Shown here in pieces: positions 6,691 through 43,690 of a stretch of DNA of 64,000 nucleotides (within the stretch, counting starts at the first letter, position 1; each line of letters opens with the position of its first letter). Source of the DNA: Psychroflexus halocasei (GTDB lineage: Bacteria; Bacteroidota; Bacteroidia; Flavobacteriales; Flavobacteriaceae); the NCBI RefSeq assembly GCF_900107595.1, contig NZ_FNQF01000007.1, forward strand, positions 1-64,000. The letters are read 5' to 3'. The position numbers and the translations under genes were made by a program. The notes beneath the pieces were generated by a model, which did not search any database, had not been told where the DNA came from, and saw only the letters and a list, made by a program, of their open reading frames with translations.

Positions 6691-7002
6691 ATGAAACGCT
6701 CCTATCACAATTATTCAGTTTATATCTTGACAAATAAGCAGCGTGGTACATTATATATCGGAATGACTGGTGGAATAGATGATCGTATAGAACGTCATAG
6801 ACAAGGGAAAGGAAGCTTCTTTACAGCTAAATACAATTTGACAAAATTGGTTTATCAAGAAGATTTTCAATATGTTAATGATGCGATAGCGCGAGAAAAG
6901 CAATTGAAGAGCTGGCAACGAGACTGGAAAATCGAGTTAATTGAGAAGGATAATCCAGAGTGGAAAGATTTGTATAAGCCACTGAGGGGAGATTCTGAAT
7001 AA
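6691..7002 (+). CDS. Single-domain GIY-YIG nuclease
   Basis: The 103-residue protein contains the GIY-YIG fold: VYILTNKQRGTLYIGMTGGI (the second motif reads LYIG), the conserved Arg of DDRIERHRQG, YNLTKLVYQE, the Glu of AIAREKQLKSW and the tail KIELIEKDNPEWKDLYKPL. It belongs to the small UvrC-N-like or YhbQ-like GIY-YIG group; family members are metal-dependent nucleases, but the roles of stand-alone members are largely unknown. The last four residues (GDSE) and the stop codon are encoded by a dispersed repeat unit that begins inside the gene (about 6990), and another repeat tract lies just upstream. The gene is thus embedded in the palindromic repeat family, a feature discussed in the findings. 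Confidence 0.9.
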   Translation: MKRSYHNYSVYILTNKQRGTLYIGMTGGIDDRIERHRQGKGSFFTAKYNLTKLVYQEDFQYVNDAIAREKQLKSWQRDWKIELIEKDNPEWKDLYKPLRGDSE

Positions 7003-8001
7003 ATTTCTCCTATCGTCGAAATTTTTCAGAATGACAAAATAACCTTTGAATTGTCATGCTGAACAAATGCAGCCACAGGCGAAGTGCGATTCAGCATCTC
7101 TTTACAAGGTGAAGTTCTTTTCATTTTCTTTGCTCACCCAAAGAAAACGAAACAAAAGAAAAGGTGTCTTTTTTATAGGTGTTTTGTCTATCGACAAACC
7201 AGAAAACTCTCGTTAAAATACCTCCAAGGCTTCGGTATTTTTTAACGCTCAACTTTTCTTACACTTAAAAAAAGAAGACTGAAACCTGATGATTCAGTTT
7301 TAATTTAAGAATTGAAAGGCTTAAAGCATAGTGCTTGCAGTGAATCAACATATTCACGACTTGTTTGCCAAGCTATTTCTTATATTATTCCACTCACTAA
7401 ATAATAATGATATGAGGTGTAAATCTTAAAGCAAATTCAAAATTCATAATTTAAGAGAACGGCCTACTTTTCATGTTTATTCAAAAACAATAAATCCCGA
7501 AGTCTCGGGAGCTGCAAGGGCTTAGGAGCAATGCGCTAGTGAAACGGTTCGCGTTGCGAAAAAGGTTTGTCATTCTGAAGACACGAGTACGGGAGTGTCA
7601 TTCAGAATCTCATCAATTGGAGTAGGATCAGTTTTAAAATCTGATATCTTTATAAATCATGAGATTCTGAATAAATCTCTCCTATCGTCGAAATTTTTCA
7701 GAATGACAAAATAACCTTTGAATTGTCATGCTGAACAAATGCAGCCACAGGCGAAGTGCGATTCAGCATCTCATCTCCTTATTTGTCATTCTGAAGGCAC
7801 GAGTACACGAAAAATTATAAACGATTACACGAAAAACTATTCACTCATCACTAGTCACGAATCACCACTCACTGATCACTGACAACTGAAAACAGATAAC
7901 GGTAAACTGAAATCTAAAAACCTCTATTTAAGAAGGATTTTACCTCGTTTGCTTCTGAGATGACATTGTAATTTAGATGTTCATTCTAAAAGAATCAGCT
8001 C
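7003..8001. repeat. 1-kb repeat island
   Basis: No gene is seen. Palindromic REP-like units occur at about 6990-7028, 7050-7101, 7567-7615, 7660-7710 and 7716-7770. A block of about 105 bp (about 6994-7101) is repeated at about 7668-7770. At 7210-7245 there is a hairpin with GTTAAAATACC and GGTATTTTTTAAC arms. The left arm and core of the 132-bp hairpin repeat (see 18177) lie at about 7441-7560, but its right arm is replaced by a different unit, so this copy is a recombinant. From 7800 the sequence becomes low-complexity 'cgaatcacc' text. Confidence 0.85.
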
Positions 8002-16098: not shown

Positions 16099-16324
16099 AA
16101 CTTTGTATGTGTTTTTAGTTAAACTAGGTTTTAATAAAAGCGCATTTGCCTTCCCGTGGTCTGCAAACTATAGGGGAGGTTTTTTGCTTTTAGATGTAAT
16201 GCACATTGTGCTTAAAGAGCTATTGAATAAGACTTAAGCCTGTGATTGTATGCATAACATGAGTTTGTTAAGTGTCATTGATGGGCGATTGTTTTAAAGA
16301 AGTTATTTTTTAATAATAAACGCC

Positions 16325-16500
16325 ATAAAAAGGGCGTGAAAGCTCAACCTACCGAACATGGGGTACTGGCATACCTTACCACGATAAGTGAGCTCACGCC
16401 CGGGTCGTGAGCTATATTACTTATCCTCTCGTGGTTTTAAAAACGCCAGTTTTCTGTTCGAGACTCAAAGCAATAGCTTCTATGTTTTTATTTTAAGAAG
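16325..16500 (-). ncRNA. Candidate attenuator leader or small RNA upstream of SusC
   Basis: Two large hairpins share bases. On the minus strand the first (16378-16435) pairs ACCACGA, GATAAGT and CGTGAGCT type arms over 22 positions with a seven-base loop. The second pairs GGGCGTGAGCTC (16401-16390) with GAGC-TT-TCACGCCC (16345-16332) and is followed at once by TTTTTAT, like an intrinsic terminator. The segment 16390-16398 is needed by both, so they are mutually exclusive, as in attenuators and riboswitches. Flavobacterial promoter matches lie just upstream (16506-16539). The RNA would be about 175 nt if terminated, or a leader of about 400 nt if read into SusC. No known RNA family is recognised; the plus strand can form the same stems but lacks the T-run. 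Confidence 0.5.
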
Positions 16501-16505
16501 TACTG

Positions 16506-16539
16506 CAAATATATTAATTGGACAAATATAACAAAAATA
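16506..16539 (-). promoter_or_regulatory. Putative promoter for the SusC leader
   Basis: On the minus strand three TANNTTTG boxes lie in a row: TATTTTTG (16539-16532), TATATTTG (16530-16523) and TATATTTG (16513-16506). For the last one, the TTG at 16534-16532 gives an 18-base spacer to the -7 box, the usual spacing for the primary sigma factor of Bacteroidota. The region is AT-rich, so chance matches are possible. Confidence 0.45.
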
Positions 16540-16545
16540 TTAATA

Positions 16546-16565
16546 TGTAGGTTTTTTTACCTACA
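16546..16565. promoter_or_regulatory. Inverted repeat, likely operator of the xre gene
   Basis: TGTAGGT and ACCTACA are separated by six T. This perfect 7-bp inverted repeat lies 45 bases before the xre start codon and beside the divergent minus-strand promoter boxes. The right half with its flank (TTTTTACCTACAAT) recurs at about 16961-16974 upstream of the 17054 gene. XRE regulators commonly bind such repeats to control themselves. Confidence 0.5.
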
Positions 16566-16609
16566 ATATTTTTTGATGTTATCCTCAAATTGCTAAAAAG
16601 CTTACTATA

Positions 16610-16852
16610 ATGGCAATCAAAGAGAATAATAAGAACTTGCTTTTACTTACGGGAAAACGAATAAAACACTTAAGAAAAGAGCAAGGTTTAAGTCTAAGGA
16701 AACTAGCCCAGAGATGTGATGTGGATTTTAGCGATATAAATAAAATTGAAAAAGGAGAACGTAATATGCAGATGACGACTCTTTTTGAACTAGCAAAAGG
16801 CTTAGAAGTCCATCCCCGAGATTTGTTTGATTTTGAGATGGAGAGGGAGTAA
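16610..16852 (+). CDS. XRE family transcriptional regulator
   Basis: The 80-residue protein is essentially one helix-turn-helix domain: GKRIKHLRKEQGLSLRKLAQ, RCDVDFSDINKIEKGERNMQ and TTLFELAKGLEVHPRDLFDF, the classical HTH_3 pattern over residues 15-75. It lies divergent from the SusC operon. Its 3' end (16784-16843) is duplicated at 17885-17944 with one mismatch, so a 1.1-kb segment appears to have inserted at the end of the gene while keeping it intact; the two ends differ only in the last residues (ending MERE here, ME followed by a stop in the other copy). The inverted repeat upstream suggests autoregulation. Confidence 0.9.
   Translation: MAIKENNKNLLLLTGKRIKHLRKEQGLSLRKLAQRCDVDFSDINKIEKGERNMQMTTLFELAKGLEVHPRDLFDFEMERE
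16784..16843 (+). repeat. Left 60-bp direct repeat (inside the xre gene)
   Basis: This stretch is identical at 59 of 60 positions to 17885-17944 and encodes the last residues of the XRE protein (FELAKGLEVHPRDLFDFEME). With its partner it brackets the 17054 gene and the DUF2335 gene. Such a duplication at the end of a gene resembles attachment sites of site-specific elements that rebuild the 3' end of their target. Confidence 0.85.
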
Positions 16853-16960
16853 AAGTGTTTGTTTAAAACAATTAATTCTTAATACACTTATACTTACTCA
16901 ACCAAAATAAAATAGTGTTAATAGCTATAGCATACAAATATAAGTCAATTAAGTTAGCTA

Positions 16961-16975
16961 TTTTTACCTACAATG
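16961..16975 (+). promoter_or_regulatory. Second copy of the ACCTACA half-site
   Basis: TTTTTACCTACAAT upstream of the 17054 gene repeats the right half of the inverted repeat at 16546-16565 and is flanked by TAGCTA on both sides (about 16955 and 16976). This suggests that the XRE protein also controls the downstream cassette. The full inverted repeat is not present here. Confidence 0.35.
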
Positions 16976-17053
16976 TTAGCTACAGTTTTTTTAAAGTACT
17001 AATTTGTCTAAATTTTTCAGTCATTGCTGAAAAATATTTTATATTTATGATGT

Positions 17054-17335
17054 ATGGAAAATGTTAAAGAGTTATATAAAACCGTTGAGCATAATATGAA
17101 AAAGCGTAAAACAATATTTAAAACTGACTTTCTATTACCAAAAAATAACTTTTTTGTAGGATTGGGAAGTGTTTTAAATATCGCGGGGTCTTATTTTGAT
17201 TATAACTATTCTAAATCAGCGGCAGAAGCAGATCGCAAAGCTTTAGTTTCAGATTGGGCGAATGTTGGTGATGATTTCAAGTCAGCAAAGGAAGTCTTTG
17301 AAAAAAAGAATTCCAATAAACTTTGCTTAAAATAA
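17054..17335 (+). CDS. Protein of unknown function (93 aa) in the inserted cassette
   Basis: The 93-residue protein begins MENVKELYKTVEHNMKKRKT, has a hydrophobic glycine-rich stretch (about 31-48, NNFFVGLGSVLNIAGSYFDY) that could be a membrane or amphipathic segment, and then a charged helix (SKSAAEADRKALVSDWANVG). I recognise no family. It lies 7 bases before the DUF2335 gene, so the two are probably one operon, and inside the 60-bp direct repeats. Part of the XRE half-site lies in its promoter region. The AT-rich composition is like the rest of the cassette. Confidence 0.65.
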   Translation: MENVKELYKTVEHNMKKRKTIFKTDFLLPKNNFFVGLGSVLNIAGSYFDYNYSKSAAEADRKALVSDWANVGDDFKSAKEVFEKKNSNKLCLK

Positions 17336-17342
17336 CTTTAAA

Positions 17343-17845
17343 TTGAGCAATAAACAACAAAATAATAAGCCATCGAAAGTAAAAATTCCTGAAGAATTAC
17401 AGGAGCTAGAGGAAGAACTTAAAAATATTAATCCAAAAATTTTTGATGGCTTACCAAAGAACAAAAACTTGAAATTTTAAAAAGCTTATCTTTTACTTTA
17501 ATACAAGAAAAATCTCATTCAGGCCCTCTGCCAGATGCAGAAACACTTGTTAGATATGATTCCGTTATACCAGAAGGAGCATATCGAATTATGAAAATGG
17601 CTGAAAATCAACAAAATCATAGAATTTCTATAGAAAGTAAATTAGTTGCAAGTCAATCAGCTCAAAGTAAATTAGGACAAGTTTTTGGATTGATTATTGG
17701 ATTGTCAGGAATAGGATGTGGAACTTATCTTGCTTCAATAGGGCAAGATATCGTTGGAGGCATAATAGCTGGGGGAACAGTTGTTAGTTTAGTTTCAGTC
17801 TTTGTTTTAGGGAAAAAATCTCAAAAAAAGAACAACGAAGATTAA
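17343..17845 (+). pseudogene. Frameshifted DUF2335 family membrane protein
   Basis: Two overlapping frames together encode one DUF2335 protein. The first (TTG start at 17343, stop at 17480) gives KIPEELQELEEELKNINPKI. The second continues from about 17459 with KSLSFTLIQEKSHSGPLPDA, ETLVRYDSVIPEGAYRIMKM, AENQQNHRISIESKL, and two membrane helices (VFGLIIGLSGIGCGTYLAS and IIAGGTVVSLVSVFVLG). One missing A in the CCAAAG run at 17454-17459 breaks the frame; restoring it gives about 167 residues, normal for the family. A restart at ATG 17591 would give only the helical 84-residue part. The function of DUF2335 is unknown. A sequencing error, a true mutation or phase variation at the A-run are all possible. 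Confidence 0.75.
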
Positions 17846-17884
17846 GTAAACACTAGCAAACTAGCACTCAATTTTCTATAGATA

Positions 17885-17944
17885 TTTGAACTAGCAAAAG
17901 GCTTGGAAGTCCATCCCCGAGATTTGTTTGATTTTGAGATGGAG
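17885..17944 (+). repeat. Right 60-bp direct repeat (copy of the xre 3' end)
   Basis: This is a 59/60 match to 16784-16843. Without the 1.1-kb segment between the repeats, the xre gene would end here with a TGA directly after the repeat. Beyond 17944 the sequence passes at once into dispersed repeats. Confidence 0.85.
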
Positions 17945-18176
17945 TGATTGGTGATTAGTAGTGAGAACTTAGTAATTCAAAATTTTGAATTTTAAATTCT
18001 AAATTTAAAAAGCCTAAAACCTACAGCCTACCGTCATAAGCAAAAAAACGATTTCACGAATCAACAAATTCATGATTTGTTTGCCAGGCTATTTCTTATA
18101 TTATTCCACTCACTAAATAATAATGATAATAGGTATAAATCTTAAAACAAATTCAAAATTTATAATTCAAGAGAAC

Positions 18177-18308
18177 GGCCTATTTTTTATGTTTTTTAGA
18201 AAACTAGAAAGCGTTGAAGAGAGGCAGAGGGAGCAATGCGCGAGTGAAACGGTTCGCGTTGCGGGGGCAGAGATGCTTTCATTGCTTTTCTAAAACAGAA
18301 AAATAAGC
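18177..18308. repeat. Hairpin repeat H, copy 1 (132 bp)
   Basis: The element is a long imperfect hairpin: GGC/GCC, TATTTTT/AAAAATA, TTTTAGAAAA/TTTTCTAAAA and GAAAGC/GCTTTC pair in nested order, and the centre (18231-18263) forms a further hairpin with GCAATGC/GCGTTGC. Copies lie at 19436-19568, 19889-20021 and 42912-43043, with arm-less or half copies at about 111-143 and 7441-7560. The core sequence is nearly invariant, whereas arms vary but keep pairing. Confidence 0.8.
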
Positions 18309-19435
18309 CTAGACTTTTTTCTTTCTTTTTTGGGCGATGCAAAAAAGGAAAAGGATATTAAAAGAAGTCGAATCATTATATTAAGCACGAAATAGAAACC
18401 GAAAGATAGACTTTGAATTGAGAGGGCTATGGAAAAGAAGGGAGAGCATTAATTGAAAACGAATTCATTAATAATTGATCAACCAATCTTTAAACTGTCA
18501 TGCTGAACAAATGCCGCCATAGGCGAAGTGCGATTCAGCATCTCATCTCTACATCTGTCATTCTGAAGACACGAGTACGGGAGTGTCATTCAGAATCCCA
18601 CCAATTGGAGACGAATCAATAATTGCATCGAAGTCTTCCTTTAAATCATTATTGAATATTACATAGTGATTTCTTTCATTTTTTCCATTGATGAAAAAAC
18701 GAAACATCCCGAATAGGTCGGGACTAACGAAAAAAGAGGAGGAAATTTTTGCTTCGTTCCTCTACGCAAAACCCCTGATGTCTTTTTCGCTACATGCTTA
18801 TGACTACGTCAAGCACTTCCGCGAAAGCCACAGGTATTTCTTGAAATTAGTCAGTTACTTTCATAATTCATTTCCGTTGAGTTGAGCTATGACAAACTTC
18901 TTAGCAGGGATAAGAGTAATTCAAAATTTTTAATTCAAAATTCATAATTGAAGAGAACGGCCTACCGCCTAAAGCTTATAGTCTATAGCAATTTCACAAA
19001 TCACCAATCACGAAAAACCGAATCAATCCCGAAGGATCGGGACAAACGAATCAGCAAATTAACGAATCACCGAATCCACGAATACACGAATAACTCGGGA
19101 CTAACAAATCATGAGATTCTGAATAAATATCTCCTATCGTCGATATTTTCCAGAATGACAAAACATGATCTGCTGAATATATTTCTTTCATTTTTTCTTG
19201 ATAAAAAACGAAGCAATCCCGAATAAGTCGGGACAAGAATAACAAAAGGAAATTTTCACTTCACTATCGTTTCGTGAAACCGCTGCTCAAACTGCGTTTC
19301 ATGCTCTTTTTTGCTACCGCAAAACGCACTTCCACTTGTTTGACAGACTATTTCTGATATTATTCCAATCACTAAACAATAATGATAAGAGGTATAAATC
19401 TTAAAGCAAATTCAAAATTCATAATTTAAGAGAAC

Positions 19436-19568
19436 GGCCTATTTTTTATGTTTTTTAGGAAACTAGAAAGCTTTGAAGAAAGGCAGAGGGAGCAATGCGC
19501 GAGTGAAACGGTTCGCGTTGCGGTGGAAGAGATGCTTTCGTTGCTTTTCTAAAACAGAAAAATCAGCC
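19436..19568. repeat. Hairpin repeat H, copy 2 (133 bp)
   Basis: Same nested arms as copy 1 with a G-T wobble in TTTTAGGAAA/TTTTCTAAAA and AAAAATCAGCC at the right end. Core at about 19490-19522. Confidence 0.75.
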
Positions 19569-19888
19569 TAGTCCCGACCCTTCGGGGTGCTTCTTTTCGG
19601 CAATGGAAAAGAAGAGGGAATATCAATAGAAGTTCCCTTCATTTTTTCTTGATAAAAAACGAAGCAATCCCGAATAAGTCGGGACAAGAATAACAAAAGG
19701 AAATTTTCACTTCACTATCGTTTTGTGAAACCGCTGTTCAAACTGTGCTACATGCTCTTTTTTGCGAAAATGCAAAACGCACTTCCGCTTGTTTGACAGA
19801 CTATTTCTGATATTATTCCAATCACTAAACAATAATGATAAGAGGTATAAATCTTAAAGCAAATTCAAAATTTATAATTCAAGAGAAC

Positions 19889-20021
19889 GGCCTATTTTTT
19901 ATGTTTTTTAGAAAACTAGAAAGCTTTGAAGAAAGGCAGAGGGAGCAATGCGCGAGTGAAACGGTTCGCGTTGCGGTGGAAGAGATGCTTTCGTTGCTTT
20001 TCTAAAACAGAAAAATCAGCC
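19889..20021. repeat. Hairpin repeat H, copy 3 (133 bp)
   Basis: Nearly identical to copy 2, offset by 453 bases within the tandem duplication. Arms GGCC/GCC, TATTTTT/AAAAAT, TTTTAGAAAA/TTTTCTAAAA and GAAAGC/GCTTTC. Confidence 0.75.
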
Positions 20022-20149
20022 TAGTCCCGACCCTTCGGGGTGCTTCTTTTCGGCAATGGAAAAGAAGAGAGAATATCAATAGAAGTTCTTTTCATTTTGC
20101 CTTGACGCAATCCCGAAGGATCGGGAGAAACAATCCCGAACCATCGGGA

Positions 20150-20275
20150 CAAGATTAATTTTAGGAAATTTTTACTTCGTTACTCTTCGCAAAACCCTTG
20201 TTGTCTTTTTCGCTTCATGCTTATGACTTCGTCAAGCACTTTCGCGAAAGCCACAGGTATTTCTTGAAATTAGTC
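20150..20275. repeat. Palindromic repeat Q, ~125 bp
   Basis: Arms near GATTAATTTTAGGAAAT and GTATTTCTTGAAATTAGTC pair imperfectly around a conserved centre with TTTTTCGC and TTTCGCGAAAG. Other copies lie at about 18720-18852, 22289-22411 and 43142-43267. Confidence 0.65.
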
Positions 20276-20770
20276 GGTTGAGTTACATTGAGGCTTTAGA
20301 GTTAAATAAAACCGATTCACGAAAAAACGAATACACGAATACACGAATTTACGAATAGTCGAATAACCGATTATACGATTTCACGAATCCACGAATCCAC
20401 GATTTTATCCCGAATAACTCGGGACTAACAAAGCATGAGATTCTGATCCCGACCCTTCGGGGCAGAATGACAGATATTTTGCTAGTCACCATTCACGAAT
20501 CACAAGTCACAGAATAACTGACAACAGATAACCTATTAAATGTATTCCCTTCATTTTTTCTTGATAAAAAACGAAGCAAAAAATCAAGAATAAAATGAGG
20601 AAATTTTCACTTCACTATCGTTTCGTGAAACCGCTGTTCAAACTGCGCTTCATGCTCTTTTTTGCGAAAATGCAAAACGCACTTCCGCTTGTTTGACAGA
20701 CTATTTCTTATATTATTCCTCTCACTAAACAATAATGATATGAGGTTTAAAACATACCGCCTAAAGCCTA

Positions 20771-21230
20771 AAGCTTATAGCCTAAAGCAATTTCACGAAA
20801 ACCGAATTACTAGTTATAAATCACGAATACACGAATAAACGAATACACGAAAAACTATAAACGATCAACTAACAACTGATAACCGACAACGGATAACCGA
20901 AAAACCGCTCTATGCTCTATGCCGTATGCCTAAAGCTTATAGCCTAAAGCAATTTCACGAAAACCGAATTACTAGTTATAAATCACGAATACACGAATAA
21001 ACGAATACACGAAAAACTATAAACGATCAACTAACAACTGATAACCGACAACGGATAACCGAAAAACCGCTCTATGCTCTATGCCGTATGCCTAAAGCTT
21101 ATAGCCTAAAGCAATTTCACGAAAACCGAATTACTAGTTATAAATCACGAATACACGAATAAACGAATACACGAAAAACTATAAACGATCAACTGATAAC
21201 TGATAACCGATAACCGATAACCGATAACTG
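20771..21230. repeat. 162-bp tandem repeat, about 2.8 copies
   Basis: Units begin at 20771, 20933 and 21095 (marker AAGCTTATAGCCTAAAGC) and are almost identical. Each holds 'cgaatacacgaataaacg' text and 'ctctatgctctatgccgtat'. A related single unit is at about 380-500. No coding potential is visible. Confidence 0.85.
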
Positions 21231-21234
21231 ACAA

Positions 21235-21864
21235 CTACTCCACAAAAACACTTATAGAAGCCGTTTTTTCTTTTTGCCCTAAATACCCAAACCAGACTAG
21301 AGGAGGAGACGTGCCTTGCCAAACTTCCGGGATTTTAAAGTCTGCTTGTTCATCGTTTCGTAATGCTAAGTTGGCCTTGAAATAAAATTGATGAAGCTGA
21401 GGTTGATAAAGCACAACAAACAATTCATCATCAGCCTGTGCAAGTGCTTGATCTTTTTCCGATGTCCATGTGACACTTCGTGTGAAGCTATCGACTTCAA
21501 TTATATTAAGATGAGCAGGAGGGCGTATCATTCCGTAACTCATGAGGGCTTTAGAGAGGTTGATAGAAAATTGTTGGTTATTTTCAGAAATGGCATGCTT
21601 AAGATAATAAGATTTAATAAGGTGATAAGTTGCTTTTTTCTGATTAATCGGGAAATAGGTTTGATTTAAAATAAAGCTCGCAGCATTTAAAAAATGCATC
21701 ACGCATTTCATTTTCTGACGCTGACGAAGCTGCAATTGCGTTGCAGGTTTTTTGGTTGGTCTCGGAGCGCTACTGACGTAATTCCCATATTTACTTTTTT
21801 TGAAAACTAAGTTTCCAGCCTTTCCAGATATTGTCCCTATGCTATTGTGTATGATTTGTGCCAT
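21235..21864 (-). CDS. DUF6266 family protein
   Basis: The 209-residue protein begins MAQIIHNSIGTISGKAGNLV, followed by FKKSKYGNYVSSAPRPTKKP and a glutamine/arginine-rich helix (ATQLQLRQRQKMKCVMHFLN), the N-terminal hallmark of DUF6266. The rest alternates short beta-like stretches (FTRSVTWTSE, ELFVVLYQPQLHQFYFKANL, PLVWFGYLGQ). No signal peptide is seen. Function is unknown; the family is very common in Bacteroidota and some members lie in phage-like regions. It stands alone in the repeat island; a distant paralogue is at 1390-2145. Its stop is directly at the end of the 162-bp tandem repeat, without a recognisable terminator. Confidence 0.8.
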   Translation of the reverse strand: MAQIIHNSIGTISGKAGNLVFKKSKYGNYVSSAPRPTKKPATQLQLRQRQKMKCVMHFLNAASFILNQTYFPINQKKATYHLIKSYYLKHAISENNQQFSINLSKALMSYGMIRPPAHLNIIEVDSFTRSVTWTSEKDQALAQADDELFVVLYQPQLHQFYFKANLALRNDEQADFKIPEVWQGTSPPLVWFGYLGQKEKTASISVFVE

Positions 21865-22556
21865 GGTATTTAGTTTTGATTTAAAAATACAGCAGTATCT
21901 CCAAGCTCAAGCGAGGTCTTTCACATGCAGATTGTAGTGATGAAGTATACTTAGCGCGTTGTTCCTTCGATCAAAGAACGTTGTTTCCTTGATATCACAG
22001 GACTTTATCGAGCAAAGATCGAGCAAGCATCGAGTCAATAGCGAGTTAACCTTGCTTATACCTGAGGGTGATATGGAGTATCATGCCAGTATCTATGGAA
22101 TTAAGCACTGTATTTAGACAGCTGATTTACTGTCATGCTGAACAAATGCAGCCACAGGCGAAGTGCGATTCAGTATCTCATTTCCATATCTGTCATTCTG
22201 AAGACACGAGTACGGGAGTGTCATTCAGAATCTCATCAATTGAAGTTCCTTTCATTTTGCCTTGACGCAAAACGAAACAAAAAGTCAAGACTAATTTCAG
22301 GAAATTTTTGCTTCGCTGCTCTACGCAAAATCCCTGATGCCTTTTTCGCTACATGCTTATGACTACGTCAAGCACTTTCGCGAAAGCCACAGGTATTTCT
22401 TTAAATTAGTCGGTTGAGTTGCGTTGTGATTTTAAAGATTTACTGAGTAAAGAAAGACCAACGAAAATCGAATCACGATTCACAAATCACGATTCACTGA
22501 GAAACCAATAAACGAAATTTTTCGTATCATTGCAAAACCAATTTATGACCTAACTC
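21865..22556. repeat. Repeat stretch upstream of the polysaccharide locus
   Basis: No gene. At 21950-22050 there is a short set of 'gatcaaagatcgagcaa' like repeats. REP-like palindromes follow at about 22130-22180 (ATGCTGAA/TTCAGTAT) and 22190-22240 (ATTCTGAA/TTCAGAAT), then palindromic repeat Q at 22289-22411, then low-complexity 'cgaatcacgattcac' text up to the first glycosyltransferase gene. The locus promoter is not obvious. Confidence 0.75.
22289..22411. repeat. Palindromic repeat Q, second well-preserved copy
   Basis: GACTAATTT (22289) pairs with AAATTAGTC (22403-22411), with GGAAAT/ATTTCT inside. The centre has TTTTTCGC and CTTTCGCGAAAG. It differs from the 20150 copy in several arm bases. 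Confidence 0.65.
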
Positions 22557-29880: not shown

Positions 29881-30204
29881 ATGAAAGCCATGAAAACCTA
29901 TTTTGTTTACATCATCAAATGTGCTGATAACACATACTACACAGGCATGACAAACAACATCAATCGTCGTTGGTATGAGCATTGTTTTGATCAAGAGAAT
30001 AAAAGTGCATATACATATTCTCGAAAGCCATTAAAACTGGTTTTTTATGAAACTTTTAATGATGTCAAACAAGCCTATGCATTTGAGAGAAAAATAAAAA
30101 AATGGAGTAAAGCCAAGAAAGAAGCTTTAATTGAGAAAAACTGGGATAGATTAAAGAAGTTATCAGAGTGTCAAAATGATTCACATTTTAAGTATAAAGA
30201 GTAA
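29881..30204 (+). CDS. Single-domain GIY-YIG nuclease (YhbQ-like)
   Basis: The 107-residue protein has TYFVYIIKCADNTYYTGMTN (GIY-YIG motifs VYI and YTG), the catalytic Arg in NINRRWYEHC, YTYSRKPLKLVFYETF, and the Glu in AYAFERKIKKWSKAKKEALI. It is of the YhbQ/UPF0213 type. The second Met (29890, MKTYFVYI) is the more usual start for the family; the upstream ATG at 29881 is also possible. The gene lies wholly within a REP-type repeat tract (29727-30575) that interrupts the sialic acid genes between neuC and neuA. It is not obviously related to polysaccharide synthesis. Confidence 0.9.
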   Translation: MKAMKTYFVYIIKCADNTYYTGMTNNINRRWYEHCFDQENKSAYTYSRKPLKLVFYETFNDVKQAYAFERKIKKWSKAKKEALIEKNWDRLKKLSECQNDSHFKYKE

Positions 30205-31265: not shown

Positions 31266-32323
31266 ATCTGTTTTTTGAAAACAGCTTGTTCTATTTAGCA
31301 TCTATCTTATAAAAATGACTTTTGTTCAGCATCGAGCTTATAGAAAGCACTCTTCAATGTTCAACATCGAGCGGAGTAGAGATGGAGCGTAGTCGAGATA
31401 AATAGAAACTAAGATGAGTTCACGTTTAGCTGTTCTCGACTTCGCTCGAACATAAACATGTGTTGTTAGTCTTTTGTTATAGCTTTTCCTGAGTTTTAGT
31501 GGAAGGGTTTGAACATATAACAGTTCATTTGTTCAGCATTTATCTTATAAAAACACTCTTCAATGTTCAACATCGAGCTCTTAAAAAACACTCTTTTTTG
31601 TTCAACATCGAGCTCTTAAAAAGCACTCTTCTTTGTTTAACATCGAGCGTAGTCGAGATAAATAGAAGCTGAGATGAGTTCACGTTTAGTTGTTCTCGAC
31701 TGCGCTCGAACATAAACATGTGTTGTTAGGCTTTAGTTATAGCTTGTCCTGAGTTTTAGTGGAAGGGTTCGAGCATATAACAGTTCATTTGTTCAGTATT
31801 TATCTTATAAAAGGGACTCTTGTTCAGCATCGAGTTCATAAAAAGCACTCTTCTTTGTTCAGCATCGAGCTCTTAAAAAACACTCTTTTTTGTTCAACAT
31901 CGAGCGTAGTCGAGATGGAGCGTAGTCGAGATAAATAGAAACTAAGATGAGTTCACGTTTAGCTGTTCTCGACTTCGCTCGAACATAAACATGTGTTGTT
32001 AGTCTTTTGTTATAGCTTTTCCTGAGTTTTAGTGGAAGGGTTTGAACATATAACAGTTCATTTGTTCAACATTTATCTTATAAAAACACTCTTCAATGTT
32101 CAACATCGAGCGGAGTCGAGATGAATAGAAGTCGAGATGGAGCAGAGCCAAGTTGGAAAACTTAAGTTCTCCTAAGATTAAACTCGCAAACAATATATAG
32201 TTTCAAAATATTTACCGAGTTTTGTTGAATTAAGAAAAGCATAACAAATAATCTACAGATTAAATAAAAGTGATTGTGTGCATTAATTAATTGATCAATT
32301 AATACTTCATAAAAATTAATTTA
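31266..32323. repeat. Tandem array of ~260-273-bp REP-containing units
   Basis: Marker sequence AGATGAGTTCACGTTTAG appears at about 31412, 31672 and 31945 (spacing 260 and 273). Each unit holds CTCGAC-GCTCGAAC type palindromes, 'cctgagttttagtggaaggg', 'aacatataacagttcatttgttc' and two to four 'tgttcaacatcgagc' boxes. The array ends at about 32130 with 'gagcggagtcgagatg'. 32150-32323 is AT-rich and without gene, probably carrying the promoter of the next gene. Confidence 0.85.
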
Positions 32324-39761: not shown

Positions 39762-41176
39762 TGATGAAAAAACTAAAAAGAAAGAGTTTAAACCTTAAAA
39801 AATATGAGAAAAAGTATGCAATGTCTATATTTTTTCATCTCGTCATAGGCTTTTTAGTTTATGTATTTAAGCCTTTAGCCTTGCTATATATGCTAGGTAT
39901 ATTTGTTTATTTTATAGCAAAAATTACAAGCAACCCACAGCAGCCATTATTAGTTTTAAAAGCAGCTGCTTATATTACGGGTGCTGAAGTTTTATTGAGG
40001 ATGACAGGTGGTTTTGTCTTTTATGAAACAGGCAAGTATGCAGTGGTTTTATTTATGCTTTTCGGAATGTTTTATCATGGTTTTAAAAAGAAAGCAATTG
40101 TCTTTATCTTTTATATCGCAATGTTGTTACCGGCTATTTACGTAACTTTTTTAGAAATAGGCTACGAAGTAAGCTTTCAAAAGTATATTTTATTTAATCT
40201 TTCTGGACCTATCTCTTTAACTGTGGCAGCTTTGTTTTGCTATGGTAGAAAATTGTCTTTACAAGATTTTTTTAAGATCATGGATATCATGATTCTTCCT
40301 GTCATTTCTATGACAGTTTATTTGATTTTCTACACTCCCGATTTGGAATCTGTAATTGTAGGTTCACAGAGTAATTTTGCAGCCTCTGGAGGTTTTGGGC
40401 CTAATCAAGTATCAACCATTCTAGGTTTAGCGATGTTTTATATTGGTACAAGACTCTTTATTCCTTATAAGTCTAATTTCTTGCAAATTTTGATGATTAT
40501 TTTACTTGTCATAATCAGCTTTCGAGCTTTAGCAACCTTGTCTCGTGGAGGGGTTTTAACAGCTGCAATTATGCTAAGTGTATTCGTTTTATCGTTGTTG
40601 ATTTATGCTAAAGCAAAGATTAAGGTACAAACAAGTTTTAAGCTTTTACTGCTGATGTTAGGGGTTGTTGTTGTTATTATTTATACAGCAGCTCAAACCA
40701 ATGAACAACTTTATAATAGATACACCAACAAAAATGCTTCAGGTATTGAAAAAGAAGATGTTTCAGCTGGTCGCTTTGATGTAGCTAATGCAGAATTAGA
40801 AATGTTTGAACAAAATCCTGTTTTTGGTGTTGGTGTAGGAATGGGTAAAGATTACAGGTTAGCCAATGATTTAACCGCTGCCTCACATAATGAAATCACT
40901 AGAGTTATTTCAGAACATGGAACATTGGGTCTTATCTCTTTTTTAGTTTTACTTCTTGTTCCAGGGTTTAAAATTCTTTTAAATCCTAGAAATCTATATA
41001 TGATTCCTTTAGTTATTTTTTGGGGAGCCACCATCAACCACTCCGCGATGCGTGTGGCTGCACCAGGTTTTATCTATGGTTTGGCATTGTTAAGCGTCAC
41101 TTACCCAACTAAGAAATCAAAGAAAGCACGTAAAAATAAAATTCATGCCCAAAAAAACATTGCTTTATCTCGGTAA
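39758..41176 (+). CDS. O-antigen ligase/polymerase (Wzy-like) membrane protein
   Basis: The 472-residue protein has about eleven or twelve hydrophobic helices, from AMSIFFHLVIGFLVYVFKPL to the last pair near residue 430. The Wzy/WaaL signature is present: LATLSRGGVLTAAIMLSVFV in the middle, then the periplasmic FGVGVGMGKDYRL and ASHNEITRVISEHGTLGLIS, where the HNE and ExG residues are typical of O-antigen ligases. It probably polymerises or ligates the repeat unit at the periplasmic face. A short basic N-terminus (KKLKRKSLNLKKYEKK) is cytoplasmic. Its 3' end overlaps the next gene by 32 bases. Confidence 0.85.
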   Translation: MMMKKLKRKSLNLKKYEKKYAMSIFFHLVIGFLVYVFKPLALLYMLGIFVYFIAKITSNPQQPLLVLKAAAYITGAEVLLRMTGGFVFYETGKYAVVLFMLFGMFYHGFKKKAIVFIFYIAMLLPAIYVTFLEIGYEVSFQKYILFNLSGPISLTVAALFCYGRKLSLQDFFKIMDIMILPVISMTVYLIFYTPDLESVIVGSQSNFAASGGFGPNQVSTILGLAMFYIGTRLFIPYKSNFLQILMIILLVIISFRALATLSRGGVLTAAIMLSVFVLSLLIYAKAKIKVQTSFKLLLLMLGVVVVIIYTAAQTNEQLYNRYTNKNASGIEKEDVSAGRFDVANAELEMFEQNPVFGVGVGMGKDYRLANDLTAASHNEITRVISEHGTLGLISFLVLLLVPGFKILLNPRNLYMIPLVIFWGATINHSAMRVAAPGFIYGLALLSVTYPTKKSKKARKNKIHAQKNIALSR

Positions 41177-42161
41177 TATGCTTTCCAAAAGCGGAAGTAA
41201 TGTCACCTCTATAGAAACTTTAGGTTTATTCTTAACAAAAGAATCTTATTCTGTGATAAGATCTTCATCCAAAAAAAATCAAGCTCTACGCTTGTTTGAT
41301 ATGCTTTCTGCTATTCTGAAGTATCGCCATAAAGTTGATGTCGTGCTGATTGATACTTATTCTACACTAGGATTTTGGTTTGCTTATTCATCAGCGCGCT
41401 TATGTCAGATTTTAAAGATTCCATATATTCCAATTTTAAGAGGAGGAGATTTGCCTGAGCGTCTTAAAAAGAGTCCTGAGTTATGTCAAGCTTTGTTTAA
41501 AAATGCCAAAATTAATATTGCACCCTCTGCTTATCTGATGCATTATTTTAAAAAAGCTGGCTATAGCAATTTGACATATATTCCGAATACAATTGAAATC
41601 TCAAATTATCAATTTAAAAAACGTAAACATTTATCGCCCAAACTTTTGTGGGTGCGCGCTTTTGTTGATATCTATAACCCGCTATTAGCACTCAAGGTTT
41701 TAGAAGAATTACTAAAGACTCATCCAGATGCTGAGCTCAGCATGGTCGGCCCTTTTAAAGATGAAACCATCGATGAATGTCGTGCTTACGCAGAAGAGAA
41801 TAAACTTCCTGTCACATTCACAGGAGGCATGCCAAAAGAAGATTGGTTGGCTTACGCTGAAAATTTTGATATTTTTATCAATACCACAAATGTGGACAAC
41901 ACACCCGTTTCTGTCATTGAAGCCATGGCATTAGGCTTGCCAGTTGTCAGCACCAATGTTGGCGGATTGCCTTTTATGTTAGAACATCAAACAGATGCAT
42001 TACTGGTCAAACCAGACTCAAAAGAAGAGATGACCTCTGCAATTCAGTCACTTTTAGACTCTTCAGAACTCAGTCAAAACATCACCGCCGCTGCCAGAGC
42101 CAAAGTTGAAAAATTCGACTGGGAAGTTGTGAAACATCAGTGGTTTGAAGTTTTAAGTTAA
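41145..42161 (+). CDS. Glycosyltransferase family 4
   Basis: The 338-residue protein begins KKTLLYLGNMLSKSGSNVTS, has the middle IPILRGGDLPERLKKSPELC, NINIAPS-like INIAPSAYLMHYFKKAG and IPNTIEISNYQFKKRKHL, and the donor half LLWVRAFVDIYNPLLALKVL, ELSMVGPFKD, LAYAENFDIFINTTNVDNTP followed by VSVIEAMALGLPVVSTNVGG. The first Glu of EX7E is replaced here (DNTPVSVIE), which is seen in some GT4 members. It is the last gene of the locus and overlaps the polymerase gene by 32 bases. Repeats begin directly after its stop. Confidence 0.88.
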   Translation: MPKKTLLYLGNMLSKSGSNVTSIETLGLFLTKESYSVIRSSSKKNQALRLFDMLSAILKYRHKVDVVLIDTYSTLGFWFAYSSARLCQILKIPYIPILRGGDLPERLKKSPELCQALFKNAKINIAPSAYLMHYFKKAGYSNLTYIPNTIEISNYQFKKRKHLSPKLLWVRAFVDIYNPLLALKVLEELLKTHPDAELSMVGPFKDETIDECRAYAEENKLPVTFTGGMPKEDWLAYAENFDIFINTTNVDNTPVSVIEAMALGLPVVSTNVGGLPFMLEHQTDALLVKPDSKEEMTSAIQSLLDSSELSQNITAAARAKVEKFDWEVVKHQWFEVLS

Positions 42162-42369
42162 TAGTGAGTAGTGAGTAGTGAGTAGTTAGTAGTGAGTAGT
42201 GAGTAGTGAGTAATTCAGAATTCAGAATTTAGAGAGCTTAAAGCCTACCGCTTATAGCATAAAGCAAAAAAACGATTTCACGGATCAACGATTTTACCCC
42301 GAATAACTCGGGACTAACAAATCATGAGATTCTGATCCCGACCCTTCGGGGCAGAATGACAAATAACCG

Positions 42370-42500
42370 ACAACCGAGAACTGACAACAGACAACTGAAA
42401 ACAGACAACTGAAAACAGACAACTGAAAACAGACAACTGAAAACAGACAACTGAAAACAGACAACTGAAAACAGACAACTGAAAACCGAAAACTGAAAAC
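42370..42500. repeat. 14-bp tandem repeat array
   Basis: The unit GACAACTGAAAACA is repeated about eight times head to tail. There are no unique spacers, so it is a microsatellite-like array and not a CRISPR. It passes into degenerate variants up to about 42545. Confidence 0.85.
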
Positions 42501-42799
42501 CGAAAACTGATAACAGAGAACAGAGAACGGACAACTGAGAACCGAATCACAAGTCACAGACAACCGATTTAGTCTTGGGTCAAATGGTCTTGAGTTGGTA
42601 GTGGATAGTGGTGAGTAATTCAGAATTCAAAATTTAGAGAGCTTAAAGCCTAAGCTTAGAGCTTATTACCTAAAGCAAAAAAACGATTTCACGGATCAAC
42701 GATTTTACCCCGAATAACTCGGGACTAACAAATCATGAGATTCTGATCCCGACCCTTCGGGGCAGAATGACAAATAACCGACAACCGAGAACTGACAAC

Positions 42800-42910
42800 A
42801 GAGAACTGAGAACGGACAACTGAGAACGGACAACTGAGAACAGAAAACTGAGAACAGAAAACTGAGAACAGAAAACTGAGAACAGAAAACTGAGAACAGA
42901 AAACTGAGAA
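42800..42910. repeat. Second 14-bp tandem repeat array
   Basis: The related unit AGAACAGAAAACTG recurs about five times after two or three AGAACGGACAACTG variants. It ends directly at the left arm of hairpin element H. Confidence 0.8.
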
Positions 42911-42911
42911 C

Positions 42912-43043
42912 GGCCTACTTTTCATGTTTATTCAAAAACAATAAAGATGCGCCGCAAGGGCTTGAGAGCAATGCGCTAGTGAAACGGTTCGCGTTGTGGG
43001 GCAAAGCATCTTTAGCTAGTTTTTAGAAACAGGAAAATAAGCC
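42912..43043. repeat. Hairpin repeat H, copy 4 (132 bp, different arms)
   Basis: GGC/GCC, TTTTC/GAAAA, AAAAAC/GTTTTT and AAAGATGC/GCATCTTT pair in nested order. The arm sequences differ from those of the copies at 18177-20021 although the position of each stem and the core (about 42969-43001) are kept. Its total length is the same. Confidence 0.75.
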
Positions 43044-43690
43044 TAGACTTTTTTCTTAGTTTTTTTGGCAATGAAAAAAAGTAAAGAATATAAATCGTAG
43101 TTCTTTTCATTTTGCCTTGACGCAAAACGAAACAAAAAGTCAAGATTAATTTTAGGAAATTTTTGTTTCGTTGCTCTACGCAAAACCCCTGCTGGCTTTT
43201 TCGCTTCATGCTTATCACTATTGTGATGCATTTCCGCGAAAGGCACAGGTATTTCTTGAAATTAGTCAATTGAGTTATATTGAAATTTTAGAGTCAAATA
43301 GAACCGGCAATTGATAACCGATAAGTGAGAACGGTTAACTGATAACCGAAAACAGAGAACTGAAAACTGACAACCGAGAACCGACAACTGACAACTGAGA
43401 ACCAATTCACCATTCACGAATACACGAATAGTCGAATACACGAAAAACCAGATATTAGACAATAGATGCAAAATATAGGAAATAAGAAGCCGAAATTGAA
43501 GTCGAACTTGAAAATTGGGAAGTAACTGTCAGTTCGAGTATTTTTTTTGTAGTGATAACGGAGAAAATAATGTATCGAGAACAGAATTAGTCTTGGGTCA
43601 AAGAGTCGTGGGTCAACTCTAATCAGGGACATTCAATGAGAGTTGATAAATTCTGAATTTTGAATTTTAAATTCTAAATTGAAAAGGCCT

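Follow-up and report, generated by a model that had tools for sequence, protein, structure and literature searches.

A dispersed hairpin repeat with compensating arms in Psychroflexus and related Flavobacteriaceae

Sea ice, brine and other waters are common habitats of flavobacteria, in which the DNA between genes can be packed with repeats that go unannotated. Miniature elements of the ERIC/RUP type are single long imperfect palindromes of 100–200 bp that lie between genes in multiple copies, and attC sites, with their consensus GTT..AAC ends, conserve structure above sequence and are recognised as single strands. REPINs, in the accessible portion of their description, are paired REP sequences moved by RAYT, with a variable middle in which compensatory changes occur (PMC3116915). 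For the Bacteroidetes, the accessible part of Weinberg et al. 2010 presents Flavo-1, Bacteroides-2 and GUCCY-hairpin as candidate structured RNAs (PMC2864571), and the available portion of another study places atypical secondary structures alongside TnpA-REP genes of subclass 2.6 (PMC6006769).

The 64,000-nt stretch analysed here, called the window below, is from the genome of the salt-loving Psychroflexus halocasei and carries four full and two partial copies of a hairpin repeat, all on the + strand. Like REPINs as the accessible text describes them, these are dispersed intergenic hairpins with conserved ends, a variable compensating middle and clusters of related copies. However, the ends found in alignments are GGCCTA..TAAGCCT instead of two inverted REPs with a tetranucleotide of the GTAG/GTGG type, the repeat exceeds REPINs in length and is asymmetric, since just one of its ends bears a second hairpin, and no RAYT gene flanked by it was found. 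It resembles ERIC/RUP elements as a long imperfect palindrome lying between genes in many copies, whereas taxon and sequence differ and neither target duplication nor partner IS was found for it. With attC sites it shares a structure better kept than sequence and, in the reading that we favour, recognition as a single strand, but it comes without integrase, core boxes or cassettes. The RNAs in the accessible part of Weinberg et al. are likewise candidate structured elements of Bacteroidetes; however, the stretches searched gave no Rfam match to Flavo-1 or any other family of that set, and Bacteroides-2 and GUCCY-hairpin, lacking Rfam entries, fall outside this comparison. Subclass 2.6 TnpA-REP genes belong to the same phylum and are also accompanied by repeated hairpins, but the three Psychroflexus genes that fit the motif in the available description are flanked by GCGAT..ATCGC palindromes and not by the hairpin repeat.

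We propose, with about even confidence, that the repeat is a dispersed non-coding, non-autonomous element of the REPIN/ERIC kind whose single-strand fold is under selection and which is mobilised in trans. Its interest rests on covariation and on spread across genera: it is a strongly covarying family, without counterpart in the libraries searched, for which a concrete model and alignment can be given, and it lets one ask whether bacterial genomes hold other classes of dispersed element that depend on their fold, and by what enzyme these are moved.

Copies and architecture of the repeat

The repeat unit spans about 180 bp and consists of a main hairpin of 130–134 nt followed by a second, small hairpin, which the length of 132–133 bp in the preliminary description had left out. 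The four full copies named there are present. The main hairpin of copy 1 (18177–18310, +; 130 bits with R1, a covariance model derived from 40 distinct Psychroflexus copies) is followed at 18311–18353 (+) by a second hairpin with a T-rich arm, the loop GGCGATG and an A-rich arm. In copy 2 (19436–19569, +; 126.3 bits) the T-tract of the second hairpin (19570–19614, +) is replaced by a palindrome, and copy 3 (19889–20022, +; 128.7 bits) has the same insert in its second hairpin (20023–20067, +). Copy 4 (42912–43044, +; 125.6 bits; second hairpin 43045–43081, +) differs from copies 1–3 by a block change that affects both arms.

The near-invariant core is 34 nt long, the same in copies 1–3 and with two mismatches in copy 4 and in both partial copies, and the inner stems quoted earlier were recovered in the copies and are complementary. 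One partial copy does lack its right arm as described but starts at 7461 and not at 7441; it extends to 7560 (+) and consists of the core and a left arm split by an inserted TCCCGA..TCGGGA palindrome. The other (96–144, +; core 111–144, similarity from 96) lacks not only the right arm, as had been noted, but also the outer left arm. Recombination between elements, also suggested at that stage, is borne out by the copy at position 48773 of contig C23, which combines a left arm of the copy 1–3 type with a right arm like that of copy 4, and by the fusion of some copies with other repeats.

The whole 2.67-Mb genome (43 contigs) holds the core eight times, every one on the + strand, on contigs C21 and C23. 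BLAST in this genome returned six full copies (E 3e-66 to 2e-16) and the partial copies (E 3e-10 and 1e-9), the next match having an E-value of 0.002.

The second hairpin reaches about 37–45 nt beyond the main hairpin and has loops such as GGCRATG or ATCAATG. It is uninterrupted in 20 of 42 Psychroflexus copies, and 19 of these 20 are near-fully paired (8–9 of 9 checked pairs, G.U counted; the exception has 6); it is broken in 14 of the 22 copies invaded by another palindrome or repeat. We also observed that palindromes CCCGA..TCGGG or CCCCAAAGCTTTGGGG occupy positions that are T- or A-tracts in other copies or repeats, as at 19572–19587, 7495–7510 and 18707–18723 of the window and at three loci elsewhere (L032, L038 and L073); these short palindromes look as though they target T- or A-tracts.

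Compensatory change and strand bias

From Psychroflexus we extracted 49 copies matching the core pattern and removed five in which the two ends were not both present; the 44 left included the 40 distinct sequences of the genus alignment. Their conserved structure has 35 pairs in four helices. In this alignment 97.1% of the cells were paired, compared with 92.4% after shuffling and 42–55% after sliding the register by 1–3 columns, the paired fraction being raised by a collection based on the core pattern, which left the loop and some of the apical stem no freedom to vary. Both sides had changed at 10 pairs, compared with 5.0 in shuffles. In a tree-based test, in which a custom script (not R-scape) redistributed substitutions on the tree as the null, 4 of the 35 structure pairs reached E<0.05 within the genus when structure pairs alone were considered, and none of 8646 did so in the all-against-all comparison, where the top pair, 21-46, lay outside the proposed structure. 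Three full Psychroflexus copies missed by the collecting pattern (L180, L182 and L189) were each paired at 33 of the 35 positions and showed three double changes absent from the 40, at pairs 61-84, 14-122 and 64-81.

The signal was also found across genera. An alignment of 44 copies from 30 chosen loci, 18 of the copies from outside Psychroflexus, was fitted to the model; in it 93.9% of the cells were paired (77.2% when shuffled), with double changes at 27 of the 35 pairs (shuffled 15.6) and in 235 cells (shuffled 60.0). When the same 44 sequences were aligned independently with MAFFT, the tree-based test gave 6 of 35 pairs at E<0.05, and one proposed pair was significant among all 8256 (E 0.005). 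The fold is kept by compensatory change across the genus and in related genera, and as far as these alignments tell it seems to be what evolution preserves while the sequence changes. Compensatory arm change, proposed in the preliminary description, exceeds shuffles, slid-register controls and, for some pairs, the tree-based null, and the main claim made there, that the arms drift while a selected structure is kept and that no named family corresponds, holds as far as the searches reach. The loop AGTGAAACGGTT was identical across the 22 copies first gathered by BLAST; the three full out-of-pattern copies each departed from it by a single base or gap, and it was more divergent in other genera.

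The wobble pairs are unevenly distributed between the strands. In the 40 copies, 56 cells held G.U and 3 held A.C. Counted as events on the tree, replacement of a Watson-Crick pair led to G.U 18.5 times and to A.C 3.0 times, compared with 43.9:27.7 for the corresponding changes in unpaired columns (Fisher P 0.037). Because a cruciform would use both strands equally, this bias speaks against the symmetric DNA cruciform offered earlier as one option and gives moderate support to a single strand, which would act as RNA or ssDNA.

Folded as RNA, the four window copies beat dinucleotide shuffles, with z-scores of -5.0, -3.3, -3.0 and -2.4. Copy 4 is predicted to adopt the described fold, whereas copies 1–3 are predicted to take another one (-43.0 to -48.3 kcal/mol, against -30.0 to -34.7 for the conserved fold when forced). 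Across 13 copies, the conserved fold came to no more than 2.5 kcal/mol above the predicted optimum in six, copy 4 included, and was clearly worse than it in seven, among them window copies 1–3.

Spread, dispersal and candidate explanations

R1 gave 63 matches in 10 of 27 Psychroflexus genomes, with at most 14 per genome. Copies with unpaired arms, whose equal abundance the preliminary description had named as evidence against selection, were not equally common: 53 of the 63 matches were full-length (at least 104.6 bits) and 10 were truncated or degenerate, two of them at contig ends. The core pattern was found in the same 10 of 27 genomes, and its reversed control matched nowhere. In GTDB contigs the exact core pattern occurred in 28 stretches, all from Psychroflexus. 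Psychroflexus is a member of the Flavobacteriaceae, and in 397 genomes of this family R1 matched (E 0.01 or better) in 14, from 8 of 237 genera; three of the 14 were Psychroflexus, and E-values beyond that genus were as low as 5e-16. Viral contigs had no match to the core pattern, and plasmid records (two short queries) and phage records (one short query) had none either, so carriage by phage or plasmid was rejected.

The statement that no named family corresponds to the repeat agrees with our Rfam searches, in which the whole window was judged by gathering score and parts of it, with 18 loci, by E-value: only tRNAs reached the gathering threshold. At relaxed thresholds the best E-values for window 16100–22500 were 0.6–5, and one locus (L200) matched a Wolbachia sRNA family at E 0.033, below the gathering score of that family. 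In the literature searched, mostly papers outside subscription, no published description of the repeat was recognised.

The hairpin repeat is a self-contained unit that recurs in surroundings unrelated to one another. The 42 copies compared gave 187 pairs with at least 90% identity, which are not independent of each other; the flanks were unrelated in 180 of them, a likeness to MITEs. With the right end set at the end of the second hairpin, identity fell from 0.95 inside to about 0.35 by 25–30 nt outside at both ends. Near-identical copies in unrelated flanks argue that the unit disperses. A target duplication of 5 or 6 nt was not found in the 42 copies; an offset of 4 nt in 8 of the 42 exceeded 200 shuffles, in flanks that are A-rich and copies that are related. 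Empty sites were not found either. In four species copies have a glycosyltransferase gene upstream (window 41145–42161; L136, L152 and L154), and since this neighbour is common to all four, part of the copy set is inherited and not newly moved. The picture is that of a dispersed family of some age in which a degree of turnover occurs.

In the favoured reading, an enzyme supplied in trans would recognise the single-stranded fold, either in ssDNA at replication or in an RNA copy, and would move or copy the element, as the accessible text on REPINs proposes for them. Because it is the single-stranded fold that would be recognised, the arms could drift freely provided that pairing holds, while the loop region and the ends would remain constrained; old copies would decay, recombine with neighbouring repeats and acquire other palindromes. 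A putative structured RNA is a tentative alternative of distinctly lower probability: the repeat would be a multigene family with transcripts arising at numerous loci, and its binding sites would be the loop AGUGAAACGGUU and the second hairpin. The strand-biased wobbles together with covariation, the invariance of the loop in the 22 BLAST-collected copies and the span of model matches over eight genera are consistent with it. However, in the 40-copy set loop invariance is built in by the collecting pattern and is lost outside it, 17 of the 27 congeneric genomes have no element, orientation relative to genes shows no preference, and the other RNA fold predicted for window copies 1–3 also speaks against it. 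We consider it unlikely that complementarity arose by mutation alone, through template switching in a palindrome that copies arm onto arm with no selection on the fold. This mechanism is published for RNA hairpins, in the accessible part of its source (PMC8794818), and one event could produce the two-arm block change in copy 4. However, template switching yields perfect pairs on both strands and does not explain the excess of G.U over A.C, itself moderate (P 0.037); alone it accounts neither for the conserved loop and ends nor for the complementarity of CTTGAN and NTCAAG in the 3' modules described below. The copies form a natural set on which mutation through template switching and selection on the fold could be told apart.

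A cis-acting signal of the adjoining genes (a terminator, an attenuator or an mRNA end) would fit the observation that 47 of 50 placements avoid open frames of 110 aa or more, but is very unlikely. The upstream gene was on the same strand in 23 of the 50 placements and on the opposite strand in 18, and the downstream gene in 22 and 15, the others being unassigned; orientation thus has no preference relative to the nearest genes, which vary and lie anywhere from about 100 to several thousand bases away, and no T-run follows the second hairpin in any of the four window copies. A cis-regulatory RNA was rejected for the same lack of orientation preference. In several genomes clustered copies share an orientation, and this uniformity, with a hairpin of comparable length, is what an integron-like recombination site (attC) has in its favour. 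Such a site is nevertheless highly improbable: no integron integrase scored above the curated cut-off in any of the 27 genomes, GTT..AAC ends are absent from the alignment, and other repeats, not gene cassettes, lie between the copies at 18177–20022. Equally improbable is the remnant of a protein-coding gene. Of the 40 distinct copies, 30 have an open frame from GTGAAACGG and 20 an open first ATG frame, but the two frames contain stops in 10 and 20 of the 40, indels shift them, and the stem changes track pairing. With respect to the replication strand, orientation matches the sign of the local GC skew at many loci, with exceptions (L135, L140, L141, L150 and both copies at L155); the skew is near zero at L131, L142 and L151.

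For the trans-mobilised element that we favour, several enzymes were considered. Y1 transposase genes were inspected at 24 loci, a portion of all Pfam Y1 matches. At 16 of them, from 12 genomes, the flanks (230–400 nt, by eye) hold other short palindromes, as do those of the eight further loci. String searches of the 24 placed the element at a single locus, some 11.5 kb away from the Y1 gene, and detected a bare CGGCCTA at one other; no cognate transposase flanked by the same palindrome was found among them. RAYT/Y1 transposases were rejected as movers on the basis of these flanks. Psychroflexus Y1 genes (L127, L128, L132, L137, L143 and L277–L279) have palindrome arrays of their own, of at least three sequence types. 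The genome of the window has no Y1 gene; the one Y1 hit that Pfam gives there falls within an Eco57I/TaqI-type methylase of 1207 aa (L282, contig C30), a stretch of which scores as Y1_Tnp above the Pfam cut-off. A reverse transcriptase was rejected as well, being missing from 4 of the 10 element-bearing Psychroflexus genomes (G003, G015, G024 and G004).

By hand-entered distances, at least 5 of the 35 element clusters, merged by hand, have a GIY-YIG gene among the matches listed no more than 5.2 kb away, where 1.1 would be expected (Poisson P 0.0055). Several element-free genomes carry equally many GIY-YIG genes, and the association is confounded by the occurrence of both genes and elements in repeat-rich DNA, which makes GIY-YIG a lead only. 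The window has single-domain GIY-YIG nuclease genes at 6691–7002 and 29881–30204, and the clusters with such a gene at about 5 kb or less come from several genomes.

Related elements and repeat-rich surroundings

The window also contains elements on the minus strand that combine a different long hairpin with a module of the form CTTGAY, T-tract, hairpin and RTCAAG. The element at 22245–22412 (-) has like architecture, with the hairpin GACTAATTT/AAATTAGTC and a CTTGAC..GTCAAG module at 22261–22289. That at 43100–43270 (-; module 43116–43144) also has like architecture and is convergent with copy 4; its outer stem is unclosed in the predicted fold. An element of another subtype lies at 20545–20730 (-), with the module CTTGAT..ATCAAG at 20560–20588. 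In five of the six full copies of the genome, a minus-strand element starts about 61–68 nt after the main hairpin, with the two 3' modules facing (window 19436–19830, 19889–20280 and 42912–43270; L157 and L158); the exception is the copy at 18177. The architecture that they share suggests that the minus-strand elements and the hairpin repeat may form one superfamily.

The 3' module is made up of CTTGAN, a T-tract and an A/T-rich hairpin whose loop NTCAAG is complementary to CTTGAN. A strict pattern for it matched 19 times, in 11 of 395 Bacteroidota genomes and 8 of 170 genera, and its reversed control did not match. In 23 distinct modules the free letters of CTTGAN and NTCAAG formed 22 Watson-Crick pairs and one G.U. 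Several genomes have units in which other interiors lie between the ends GGCCTA..TAAGCCTAG and are accompanied by the second hairpin; a non-exhaustive look saw no gene-bearing version with the same ends. In the way that SINEs have a tail in common with their LINE partner, the elements could belong to a superfamily, structured and non-autonomous, that spans the phylum Bacteroidota, the common 3' module serving as the handle of a mobilising enzyme while the front hairpin is nearly free to vary, although we rate this extension as rather improbable; the module might then work as an RNA with a pseudoknot.

Paralogous DUF6266 genes adjoin copies on both contigs, at 21235–21864 of the window and downstream of the copy at L157, which suggests a duplicated segment. 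Around the copies, the intergenic DNA is rich in arrays of 7-nt units (ACTGAGA/ACAGAAA or TAACTGA-like) and 8-nt units (ACACGAAT-like), with short-unit arrays at 42344–42912, 21178–21235, 20307–20400 and other places in the window. TAACTGA heptamer repeats are described from Beggiatoaceae, Cyanobacteria and a few Bacteroidetes in the accessible portion of an earlier report (PMC4679880). Longer tandem repeats also lie between genes, one of about 260 nt in three units at 31321–32111 and one of 162 nt in three units at 20759–21244.
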